Shown: piece by piece, positions 40,193 to 63,063 of the stretch | How the letters are laid out: the number at the start of each line of letters is the position of its first letter | Numbering within the stretch: the stretch's first letter is position 1 | Source of the DNA: an uncultured Verrucomicrobia subdivision 3 bacterium | GTDB lineage: Bacteria; Verrucomicrobiota; Verrucomicrobiia; Limisphaerales; UBA11358 | Reading direction: 5' to 3' | DNA: 64,000 nt | Assembly: GCA_903872345.1 (NCBI GenBank) | Contig: CAIQKM010000033.1 | Span: 16,109 to 80,108 of the forward strand | The notes under the pieces: model-generated | The model's database searches: none | Seen by the model: only the letters and a program-made list of their open reading frames with translations | Told to the model about the DNA's origin: nothing | Program-made: the position numbers and the translations under genes

Positions 40193-40267
40193 GCGCGGTT
40201 AGCTCAGTGGTAGAGCATTACCTTGACACGGTAGGGGTCACAGGTTCGAACCCTGTATCGCGCACCA
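40193..40267 (+). tRNA. tRNA-Val (GAC anticodon)
   Basis: A full cloverleaf: acceptor GCGCGGT/ATCGCGC with one G-U pair, D-arm AGCTCAGTGGTAGAGC, anticodon loop TTGACAC with GAC (valine) at 40225-40227, T-arm CAGGTTCGAACCCTG, and CCA encoded at the 3' end (40265-40267). The decamer repeat locus begins shortly downstream. Confidence 0.95.
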
Positions 40268-40750
40268 TCTTTTTGTTCGGTAGCTTGCATAGTCTTCTTC
40301 GCAAAGCTAACAATTAATCAAATAAGCGAACCGCGCATCCGCACTTGGGTGCCGGATGCCAGAGGTGTTGATTCTGGATTTATCTTGATTTTCGCGATTT
40401 TAAAGAGGTTTTTAATCAATTCTAAAGGCTAAAGTTTTCAGATCCCGTGAAAGGGCGGGGTGGGCGGGGAATATCGACCGCAAATAAACGGGAATGGGCA
40501 CAGATGGGAAATTTCCCAGGCAGGGGGTTGGTGGCGCAGCCTTGATAAGGTTTGAATTGGTTTGATTTACCCTGATCCTCTGGCTCGGGGGGTGGCGACC
40601 CGGGGCGGTGCAATAGTTGAGGGGGCCGGACGTACCCGCCAAGGGGTGGAGAGACAACCGGGCGCGAGTTTGGCCGTGACGGTGAGTTTACCATGTAAAC
40701 TTCCAACAGGGTAATATAGCACAGGTTTGCAGATGTCAAATATGGGGCGG
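40268..40750 (-). repeat. Promoter-led decamer repeat locus
   Basis: No convincing gene. On the - strand, TTGACA and TATATT (15-base spacer, 40739 to 40713) lead into GGAAGTTTACATGG, then a proline-rich frame, then decamers ATCAGGGTAA ATCAAACCAA TTCAAACCTT ATCAAGGCTG and, further on, AATCGCGAAA ATCAAGATAA ATCCAGAATC. The promoter part matches that at 62.0 kb, where it leads into the 316-bp array. Confidence 0.6.
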
Positions 40751-59504: not shown

Positions 59505-60479
59505 TTACCGGCTCGTTTGAAATGCATGATCGCCCGAGGTTGCGCTTTGGCCGGACGGGTTGGCCGAGGCGGCGCGGAAATGATACCAGGTGCCGGGAGT
59601 CAGGCCATTCAGGGTAATAGTGTGCGAACGGGTCGGGGTCGGGGCGGATACCGTTGAGCCGTACGCCGAGGTGGGGCCGTAGGCGACCGTGGAGGTGGCG
59701 GGTTTGTCCGTGGTCCAGATAATCGTCGCCGTATCACTGGCGGAGGAAGCCGAGACGGAGGAAATGACGGGCGGGACTGACAATGATCCCAGAAATCCGG
59801 AGTGGGCGACACAATGGAACAGTCGCATATGGCCGGCATCATTCGGGTGGACGCCGTCACCGGAATTGTAGAGGCGATTGTCGGTGCCATCGGGATTGGC
59901 CAGGGCGGTCCAGAAGTTGATGGAGTTTTGGGGGTAGGTATGCTGGATCCATTGCATCGTTTTGGTCTGCAACTCGAGTTCCGGCCGGCCGCCGATGCCG
60001 ACCGGGACGGTGGTGGTAATCCAGATGGGAATGCCGGCGGCGGCGGCGGTGCTCATGATGGCAGTGAAGTTTGACTCGGTCACCGACAGGGGAATTTTCT
60101 GGCCGGCATCATTGGAGGTTAGGGACAGGAGAATGGCGTCCGGGTGGACGGCAATCGCGGCGGTGATGTTATGATGCGGGTCTTCCTGTCCAGTGCCGGC
60201 GGGCATCAGTTTGGGAGTGCTGTAACCGCCGACGGCCAGATTGATGACCGTGTTGCCGGGGTTTAACGATTTCAGATAATCCGCATACAAACCGGCCCAT
60301 GATTTGGAGCGGGTGGTGGCTCCGTAACCCCAGGCAATCGAGGAGCCGATGATGACGATCTTGCGCGGCGAGGAACTGCCGGGGCTGTCCGCCTTGGCGG
60401 GCGCCGGGGCCAGGCAGGCAAACAGGCAGGCGATGATGCCGACGGCGAGGCAGCGGCTAATAATGAGGCGATATAACAT
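59505..60479 (-). CDS. Secreted GDSL/SGNH hydrolase with fibronectin-like domain
   Basis: A 324-residue protein. Signal peptide (ISRCLAVGIIACLFACLAPAPAKA), then a SGNH hydrolase domain with IVIIGSSIAWG (serine near 46-47, GSS instead of the usual GDS) and GDGVHPNDAGH (Asp-His pair). A Thr/Ser-rich beta domain (about 235-324, WTTDKPATSTVAYGPTS) resembles fibronectin type III modules of purple acid phosphatases and glycan enzymes. It probably removes acyl groups from extracellular glycans. Confidence 0.8.
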   Translation of the reverse strand: MLYRLIISRCLAVGIIACLFACLAPAPAKADSPGSSSPRKIVIIGSSIAWGYGATTRSKSWAGLYADYLKSLNPGNTVINLAVGGYSTPKLMPAGTGQEDPHHNITAAIAVHPDAILLSLTSNDAGQKIPLSVTESNFTAIMSTAAAAGIPIWITTTVPVGIGGRPELELQTKTMQWIQHTYPQNSINFWTALANPDGTDNRLYNSGDGVHPNDAGHMRLFHCVAHSGFLGSLSVPPVISSVSASSASDTATIIWTTDKPATSTVAYGPTSAYGSTVSAPTPTRSHTITLNGLTPGTWYHFRAASANPSGQSATSGDHAFQTSR

Positions 60480-60557
60480 ACGTAACCTATTCGGAATTCA
60501 TGATTTTTGCGCTGGCGGCCGGGATTTGCAAGCGGTTTTGGCGGGAGTTGGAATCAA

Positions 60558-60578
60558 GGCTAAAGGCTGAAGGCTAAT
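60558..60578 (+). repeat. Heptamer repeat (GGCTAAA family)
   Basis: GGCTAAA GGCTGAA GGCTAAT. It lies upstream of the GDSL gene. Confidence 0.75.
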
Positions 60579-60715
60579 AAAGGGACGGTTAAGCGCGAAA
60601 GATGCGAAAGACGAGAAAAGGGGGGCGACAAGGCGGGGGGCCGGGTGGTGGACCGGGGCGAATGGGGTTATTCTAAAACAACCTTGATTTACTTTGATTT
60701 GGCTGGAATTACCTG

Positions 60716-60750
60716 GGGAATCGGATTTCGGATCGCGGGTTTCGGATTGC
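60716..60750 (-). repeat. Heptamer repeat, GAAATCC/GAAACCC family
   Basis: Read on the - strand: GCAATCC GAAACCC GCGATCC GAAATCC GATTCCC. It is the same family as the blocks before phage genes at 2342, 15496 and 17254, here in chromosomal intergenic DNA. Confidence 0.8.
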
Positions 60751-60852
60751 GGGGAGGCGTGCTGGCGGGAGGTGTTTGGCATGGCGATGCGGCTGGCAGG
60801 TTTGGCGGTTGCTGCGCCCGGGAACGGGCGCGCTCCGATAATTGGCGGTTCA

Positions 60853-61828
60853 CCTTGATATGCCTTGATTGTTTGGTTTTTAACGCAAAGGCGCAAAGTC
60901 GCGAAGGCGCAAAGGGCGGATTTATGGGAGGGGTGCCGGTTGCCGGATCTTGGATGTTGAGGGGCGTCATGGGGAGTTTTATCGGATGCTTTGATTTGCC
61001 TTGATGAGGCACGATTACAGGGGTTTTCTGCCTTGATGGTGCCTTGATGGGTCGCCCCTTCAGGGCTTGGGGCCATCCGGCGGATTGTTCCCAGGGCGTT
61101 GCCCTGGGCTGGTATGAGGCCGCGCCGTTGGCGCTTGGTTTGATGGCTTTGACTTTTTTCATTGGTTGCCTTGATATGCCTTGATTGTTGGGGTTTTAAC
61201 GCAAAGTCGCAAAGTCGCGAAGGCGCAAAGGGTGGATTTATGGGAGGGGTGCCGGTTGCCGGATCTTGGATGTTGAGGGGCGTCATGGGGAGTTTTATCG
61301 GATGCCTTGATTTGCCTTGATGAGGCACGATTACAGGGGTTTTCTGCCTTGATGGTGCCTTGATGGGCCGCCCCTTCAGGGCTTGGGGCCATCCGGCGGA
61401 TTGTTCCCAGGGCGTTGCCCTGGGCTGGTATGAGGCCGCGCCGTTGGCGCTTGGTTTGATGGCTTTGACTCTTTTCATCGGTTGCCTTGATTAGGCTTGA
61501 TTGTTGGGGTTTTAACGCAAAGGCGCAAAGTCGCGAAGGCGCAAAGGGCGGATTTATGGGAGGGGTTCCGGTTGCCGGATCTTGGATGTTGAGGGGCGTC
61601 ATGGGGAGTTTTATCGGATGCCTTGATTTGCCTTGATGAGGTACGATTACAGGGGTTTTCTGCCTTGATGGTGCCTTGATGGGCCGCCCCTTCAGGGCTT
61701 GGGCCCATCCGGCGGGTTGTTCCCAGGGCGTTGCCCTGGGCTGGTATGAGGCCGCGCCGTTGGCGCTTGGTTTGATGGCTTTGACTTTTTTCATTGGTTG
61801 CCTTGATATGCCTTGATGAGGCTTGATT
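60853..61828 (-). repeat. Array of exact-period 316-bp repeats
   Basis: Three full units (starts 60853, 61169, 61485) and a partial fourth (61801), each beginning CCTTGAT..., with exactly 316-base spacing. Each unit contains octamers (CGCAAAGG CGCAAAGT CGCGAAGG), decamers (CCTTGAT-type), and two inverted-repeat blocks (CCCCTTCAGGGC; CCCAGGGCGTTGCCCTGGG). 316 is not a multiple of three, so the long minus-strand ORFs across it shift frame in each unit and are not genes. Confidence 0.9.
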
Positions 61829-62331
61829 GCTTGGGAACCGGGGGAACATCCAACAGCGAATGCCCAACGCCCTACATCCAATGACGGAGGAGGCGGCGCG
61901 CGGTGAAGGTGATGGCGCGGGGCAAGGCGGGGGCGTCCGGGTCCGGGATTTCCGGGGGCCGGCGGGCGGGGCGCGCGGGTTACGGTGAACATATTAAGAT
62001 TACATTGTTACCTCCACGGGATTAATATAGCACGGTTTGGGAAAATGCAAGCGGCGGTTTGGAAAACAGGGGGGTGACACGAATTTCACGAAGGGGCACG
62101 AATTGGGGGCTTGGGCGGTACGGATGGTGGCGGCCGGGGAGAACCTTAAAATTGCCCGGGGCCCATGGTGAATAACCAGCCAATGGTGCTTGCGAAGCCA
62201 GTTCCGCCGGGCTGGAAGCGCCGGCTCTACGGCAGGCAAGATGCCCGCCGCTACGGGGGCGGTGGCAGATGCGCCCGCTGCCTGACGCTGAGTTGTCTTG
62301 CCCTTGACTTGGCCGGTACGGGTGTTTCAAT
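61829..62331 (-). promoter_or_regulatory. Leader and promoter of the 316-bp array
   Basis: On the - strand, TTGCAT-15 bases-TATATT (62050 to 62024) is followed by GGAGGTAACAATGTAA (a ribosome binding site with a start-stop AUG-UAA), then about 190 bases of proline-coding frame, then decamers leading into the array. To the right (62150-62280) is another G/C-rich repeat (GGCAGGCAAGATGCCCGCC). No gene seen. Confidence 0.6.
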
Positions 62332-63063
62332 ATGAATTTTATGAGAAGTGTTTTGGTGATAATTGCTTCGGTGTTTTTGCTGGGGTGCAATAAAGTACCG
62401 CCCCAAGCCCGTTCGATTCCCGAAGCTGTTAAGGCCACCCAAAACTATTCCAAGGACGAATTGCAGAGGCAGATTGTTATCGGGATGAGCATGGCGGAGG
62501 TTACCAACAAATTCGGCGCGCCCGGCTCGTTAATCAAAGCGGACGAAAGCCGGTTTTTAATGCAGTATTACTTTCCGCTTACTTTGAATCGGCATGAAGG
62601 GTTGGCTGGTTTCAGCATCGACATCAAAGATGGGGCGGTGCAGCGGTGGTCGCCGATCGAATCGGTGGGAGGAGGTTCGGAGCTGACGGATGATGATGTG
62701 ATATCACCACTGGGGGAACGATTGTTCCAAATTTATATCATTCCGAAAGACAAAACAAATATGGACAAAATTGTCAGCAAGGATGGGGTGATACAATTTG
62801 ATGATCTCAAGCTGGCTTGCAATCTGGCTTTCAACGCCAAAGTGTATGTAGGAAACAAAGACAAGGAGGGATGGCAAAGCGTCCATTTATTTTTAGGCGA
62901 ACAGGATTCGTTGAAGTTGGGAAGCTTGACGGAAACAAACATAGACAAGCAATTGCTGATCATGTGTCGGGACCAAAAGGTGGTTTTTACGAGGATATCA
63001 ATGGCGCTTTCAGCACCTTCATTCGAGTTTCGGGTTAAGGACATTTCGTCGTTAACCGATTGA
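62332..63063 (+). CDS. Lipoprotein of unknown function (SmpA-like start)
   Basis: A 243-residue protein with a lipoprotein signal (RSVLVIIASVFLLGC, cysteine at 19). IVIGMSMAEVTNKFGAPGS resembles the SmpA/OmlA-type motif of outer-membrane lipoproteins. The rest is unrecognised. Composition is more A/T-rich than the neighbours, which suggests recent arrival. Confidence 0.6.
   Translation: MNFMRSVLVIIASVFLLGCNKVPPQARSIPEAVKATQNYSKDELQRQIVIGMSMAEVTNKFGAPGSLIKADESRFLMQYYFPLTLNRHEGLAGFSIDIKDGAVQRWSPIESVGGGSELTDDDVISPLGERLFQIYIIPKDKTNMDKIVSKDGVIQFDDLKLACNLAFNAKVYVGNKDKEGWQSVHLFLGEQDSLKLGSLTETNIDKQLLIMCRDQKVVFTRISMALSAPSFEFRVKDISSLTD

Follow-up and report, generated by a model that had tools for sequence, protein, structure and literature searches.

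The window analysed here is a stretch of 64,000 nucleotides from the draft genome of an uncultured Verrucomicrobia subdivision 3 bacterium (in NCBI taxonomy, subdivision 3 is the order Limisphaerales). Between a GDSL hydrolase gene on the minus strand (start at 60479) and a lipoprotein-like gene on the plus strand (start at 62332), nearly the whole intergenic region is filled by a composite of repeats of about 1.5 kb (~60570-62050), which is more than first stated. Within it, TRF detects at 60853-61817 a tandem repeat with a period of 316 bp, 3.1 copies, 96% matches and 0 indels, in agreement with the initial annotation, which had described three and a part units of this length. The features of the composite are as follows.

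60574..60852, plus strand: older repeat material on the gene side, of the same cassette types as at other sites, including GGCTAAAGGCTGAAGGCTAA and GCGAAAGATGCGAAAGACG, a decamer remnant (60682-60703), CGGATTTCGG repeats (60722-60753) and the palindrome GCGCCCGGGAACGGGCGC (60814-60831)
60853..61168, plus strand: 316-bp unit 1, from TRF and direct unit comparison
60853..60869, plus strand: short joint of decamers (A-type) at the start of unit 1, recurring at 61169 and 61485
60884..60915, plus strand: module B octamers CGCAAAGG CGCAAAGT CGCGAAGG CGCAAAGG; copies at 61200-61231 and 61516-61547
60989..61050, plus strand: full joint A of unit 1, CTTTGATTTG CCTTGATGAG GCACGATTAC AGGGGTTTTCTG CCTTGATGGTGCCTTGATGG; copies at 61305-61366 and 61621-61682
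61054..61066, plus strand: module C hairpin 1, GCCC-CTTCA-GGGC; copies at +316 and +632
61090..61108, plus strand: module C hairpin 2, CCCAGGGC-GTT-GCCCTGGG; copies at +316 and +632
61122..61134, plus strand: module C hairpin 3, GCGCC-GTT-GGCGC; copies at +316 and +632
61169..61484, plus strand: 316-bp unit 2, 97.5% identical to unit 1
61485..61800, plus strand: 316-bp unit 3, 96.5% identical to units 1 and 2
61801..61830, plus strand: start of a fourth unit, the decamers CCTTGATATG CCTTGATGAG GCTTGATTGC, then unrelated sequence
62010..62050, minus strand: variant of the P block (see below), TTGCAT-N15-TATATT and then GGAGG, pointing into the array

The three units differ from one another at 8, 11 and 11 positions (identity 96-97.5%), and the match at lag 316 is 0.97, compared with a maximum of 0.36 in shuffled sequence (lags 100-400, 200 shuffles). 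Each unit has the order A, octamers (B), A, module C, so that A-B-A-C is present three times. The 8-mers and 10-mers previously noted in each unit are there, but its two palindromes turn out to be three hairpins. Since the units differ, their duplication by the assembly is unlikely; their number at this locus is as assembled in the 204-contig draft. An Rfam scan of the window returned only a tRNA-Val above the gathering score, and the array corresponds to no known Rfam RNA. An imperfect short-period repeat, CACGAATTTCACGAAGGGGCACGAATT, lies at 62077-62110, directly outside the P block.

A BLAST search of one 316-bp unit against its own genome gave 91 matches. The full-length unit occurs only as the three copies in the window; its pieces are found elsewhere in other combinations, and every one of its modules is dispersed through the genome. 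The description of the locus as a tandem repeat is thus correct for the local array but too narrow, as the modules are dispersed and directional and the cassettes turn over. We used pattern searches for genome-wide counts and fetched loci for the work on cassettes. The constant element of these arrays, joint A (~50-75 bp, from ~50 loci), has the form TTTTnnnCGTTTG-(CCTTGATnng)1-5-GCACGATTaCAGGGGTTTTTG-CCTTGATTGG, that is, ten-base-periodic CCTTGATnng decamers with a terminal GCACGATTaCAGGGGTTTTTGCCTTGATTGG. Its strict pattern occurs at least 71 times in the assembly, as against 0 for the reversed-pattern control, and the A copies of any one site share a single orientation. A is a direct decamer array, in which terminal inverted repeats and an inverted-repeat core are absent, and on neither strand does it fold better than its shuffles (z 0.23 and -0.12). 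At one site (L125, contig C68, ~124.0 kb), the decamer CCTTGATTTG is repeated perfectly about ten times in a row, as a decamer microsatellite adjoining a P-bearing array; this run shows slippage.

Between the A elements lie cassettes of at least nine families, with a median length of 147 bp (range ~90-250 bp) and, in pooled counts that include orthologous and hence not independent loci, 3-31 members per family over 2-27 sites, in varying order. Some are octamer cassettes whose tail is conserved, some are GGCTAAAGGCT cassettes and some consist of the three-hairpin module C; several more types are palindromic or made of CGGATTTCGG. Contigs C62, C81, C84, C89, C118, C148, C153 and others end inside or beside arrays; the arrays therefore break the assembly, where some copy numbers may be collapsed, and array copy numbers from this 204-contig draft are lower bounds. 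Draft assemblies in general can be expected to break, and may collapse, at such arrays.

Module C appears to be maintained as a set of structures, judging from compensatory changes in its stems. Hairpin 1 is found elsewhere in the versions GCAC/GTGC and GGGC/GCCC; hairpin 2, the central 8-bp stem, keeps 8/8 pairs in 25/25 copies from the two array-bearing genomes, with stems of the types CCCAGGGC, CCCAGAGC, CCTGGGGC and CCTAGGCC; and hairpin 3 has a GGGCC/GGCCC version in the congener G012. Rare copies of module C are present in G012 and in a further congener, G020. Outside the A arrays, moreover, a Y1_Tnp gene (L038, contig C68, 74.4-76.9 kb) lies among module C copies of both orientations; this is one locus only, the four other Y1_Tnp loci having no module C. 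The octamers are genus-wide, being present in most congeners; tracts of the form ACGCAAAGnCGCnAAGnCGCAAAG (L116-L121) occur in most of them and also in two further families of the order. Because B is so widespread and C occurs in G012 and G020 and at the Y1_Tnp gene, we conclude that both are older repeat types captured by the arrays, and that A is new.

The distribution of A is indeed narrow. It was found in two of the 59 genomes searched, its own genome and that of the congener G008, and a looser decamer search returned the same two. Among the 84,980 species of GTDB, A is present in one other species, the match being the record set of Verrucomicrobia subdivision 3 isolate Umea2p1_bin-1422, which agrees with G008 in its contig numbers and positions. 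Searches of IMG/VR, phages and plasmids gave no match to A, on which ground a phage or plasmid origin was rejected. At the FabG locus, the upstream region of relatives has neither decamers nor P; the upstream gene differs there, so the comparison establishes absence rather than insertion.

Comparison of orthologous arrays in the two sister species, with flanks 85-99% identical, indicates rapid turnover. Of 27 cassettes in G008, only about 8 could be paired with one in the other species (our own count, over 13 locus pairs), and some of these differences may be due to rapid divergence or to assembly loss, the latter because many contigs end inside arrays. One locus pair, the only clean case of presence and absence of a unit, differs by exactly one 243-bp unit of A plus cassette (L078 versus L058): the single A of L058 corresponds on its left to one A of L078 and on its right to the other, and changes over near the core GCACGATT, which by sequence comparison places the exchange inside A. 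Furthermore, sequence variants are less and less tightly linked to the left cassette the further along A they lie (z 7.5, 3.0, 2.2, 0.9 and -0.5; 40-111 elements, orthologues included, in coarse classes), as expected if exchange occurs inside A. Tandemly repeated units are also found at several other sites, with periods of 195 and 243. The G008 counterpart of the window locus (L093, ~82-90% identity) has one short decamer element, which is turned the other way with respect to the GDSL gene, and no 316-bp unit. The triplication is therefore recent and private to the lineage of the window, and the recent amplification proposed in the initial annotation is supported both by this locus and by the 8-11 differences per 316 positions.

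Taken together, we consider it probable that the window array is a lineage-specific, noncoding intergenic mosaic, whose cassettes are reshuffled at the A joints and whose triplication arose by recent unequal exchange. A constant directional joint A would alternate with cassettes from a limited set of families; cassettes would be gained, lost, duplicated and swapped between loci by recombination of directly oriented A copies; the number of decamers would change by slippage; and at the window locus the two-cassette unit A-B-A-C would have been triplicated by recent unequal exchange. We infer that ordinary recombination, homologous or slipped-strand, drives these changes, and not a dedicated recombinase. 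Against this explanation counts the fact that A copies are short and only imperfectly alike, and so are poor RecA substrates between distant loci.

In architecture, the nearest known system is the NIME arrays of Neisseria, and less so the pneumococcal BOX elements; the arrays described here belong to neither, because the sequence and symmetry of the joint differ. In NIMEs, a short constant repeat alternates with variable elements of 30-160 bp in arrays of 200-2700 bp, and recombination at the constant repeat has been proposed (PMC3898611). Our arrays share with them the intergenic setting and the alternation of a constant repeat with several families of variable elements. However, the constant repeat of NIMEs, dRS3, is a 20-bp inverted repeat, ATTCCC(N8)GGGAAT, and a target of phage integration (PMC3898611), whereas joint A lacks such 6-bp terminal inverted repeats, is longer, consists of direct decamers in fixed orientation and has no phage match, and the arrays carry a promoter-like block at one end. 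BOX, too, is composite and intergenic; the number of its internal modules varies, it carries open frames, and its length differs from strain to strain (PMC3049150). It resembles our arrays in these composite, variable and open-frame respects; its order is boxA-(boxB)n-boxC, while here one joint A stands between unrelated cassettes and no paired ends are seen. In REPtrons, a RAYT (Y1_Tnp) transposase gene is surrounded by copies of a palindromic repeat (PMC3733652). Module C is similar in its multiple hairpins, its compensatory stems and, at the one locus on C68, its copies flanking Y1_Tnp; unlike REP, BIME and REPtron sequences, it is in the arrays one cassette type among others, and A forms no hairpin. 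We thus find what seems an independent counterpart of Neisseria NIMEs in a distant phylum. The absence of the system from the other congeners searched makes its origin datable, and intermediate stages (single joints, two-cassette arrays, tandem triplications and decamer microsatellites) are available together with orthologous arrays in a sister species, so that the origin of such mosaics, and the choice between a recombinase and ordinary recombination, can be tested by strain comparison.

Directionality and localised exchange would also fit a dedicated enzyme. A site-specific recombinase or phage integrase acting on A, with arrays of cassettes like those of integrons or of dRS3 and the Nf1 integrase, would account for the constant directional joint, the modular cassettes, their fast turnover and the exchange near a conserved core; integrons too have directional joints between exchangeable cassettes. 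We nevertheless regard this as unlikely. A has no inverted-repeat core and, unlike attC, which folds as a single-stranded hairpin, shows no such folding (z about 0); nothing matches it among viral contigs, phages and plasmids; the array cassettes contain no recognisable genes; and no integrase or platform was seen beside the arrays, nor any recombinase identified, in an inspection that did not include a search by recombinase family. We give a similarly small chance to an undescribed cassette system of these two sister species, in which a decamer-binding protein, of recombinase or nucleoid type, would acquire noncoding cassettes of hairpins and short repeats downstream of P and reshuffle them. 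A nucleoid-type binder comes into consideration because the decamers show a roughly 10-bp helical phasing. We found no description of a decamer-joint array system in open-access papers.

The P block is a repeated sequence, TTGACATTTC.AAACCYGTGCTATATTA...GGAGGTTTACnTGGTAAACTCACCGTCACGG, on one side of many arrays, and is restricted to the genome of the window and G008. It contains a TTGACA-like element, TATATT, GGAGG and the palindrome GTTTACnTGGTAAAC, and points into the array in 27/27 assignable cases with decamers near. In its strict form P accompanies 25 of 53 assignable arrays; others, the window included, have variants, that of the window being without the palindrome. Our guess, from its elements, is that P may be a promoter. 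The spacing of its hexamers, 15, is short, and a scan with the sigma-70 consensus did not detect the window variant. At several loci (L009:2786, L043:400 and others) the palindrome GTTTACnTGGTAAAC contains GGAGG and a start-like codon (ATG, TTG or CTG), and the P classes at L016, L038 and L053 lack the palindrome and still have a GGAGG-like stretch and ATGGTT; a suggested reading of GGAGG with its start-like codon is a translation start or an operator. The window holds a second P block (40540-40740, minus strand), with GTTTACATGGTAAAC and few decamers only, a few hundred bp from the tRNA-Val (40193-40267), which is a small or decayed array.

The constant direction of P, and a next gene past the array that is co-directional in 45/67 cases (gene calls around arrays are from a simple hexamer model), would suit arrays that are transcribed from P as leaders or noncoding RNAs regulating the gene beyond. 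This is improbable on several counts: downstream genes are opposed in 22/67 cases, strict P is absent from about half of the arrays, the GDSL gene appears to be preceded by a promoter-like sequence of its own, as at L093, and the hexamers are closely spaced and missed by the consensus scan. A long 5' leader of the downstream gene was rejected as a general rule on the opposed genes, and is also contradicted by the opposite orientation of the element near the GDSL gene in the sister species. That an ordinary intergenic region was simply duplicated in tandem at this locus, the other repeats being unrelated clutter, would explain three near-identical units and an orthologous locus without the triplication; it is very unlikely, as every piece of the unit turns up again at dozens of sites, differently combined but with a fixed joint, and such dispersed A-cassette arrays contradict it.

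Four minus-strand open reading frames cross the array, in line with the earlier report of frames of over 100 codons, and all are judged artefacts.

60498-61478, minus strand: 326-codon open reading frame
60689-61162, minus strand: 157-codon open reading frame
61159..61992, minus strand: 277-codon open reading frame through the array
61475-61867, minus strand: 130-codon open reading frame

That arrays code for repetitive proteins on the minus strand, for which these frames and the Shine-Dalgarno-like GGAGG plus ATG of many P blocks might speak, is scarcely credible and was rejected: the two longest frames match no Pfam family, 316 is not a multiple of 3 and no frame is kept from unit to unit, and stops on the frame-bearing strand of 51 arrays are about as frequent as in dinucleotide shuffles (519 versus 551 +/- 17), a depletion that is small and composition-like. 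The view that the repeats have no coding sense therefore stands. The open frames are a consequence of composition, because the decamer ATCAAGGCnn and the octamer CTTTGCGn rarely yield a stop, and the opposite strand is stop-rich, because CTTGAT contains TGA; long open reading frames called inside such arrays are thus artefacts of which annotation should beware.
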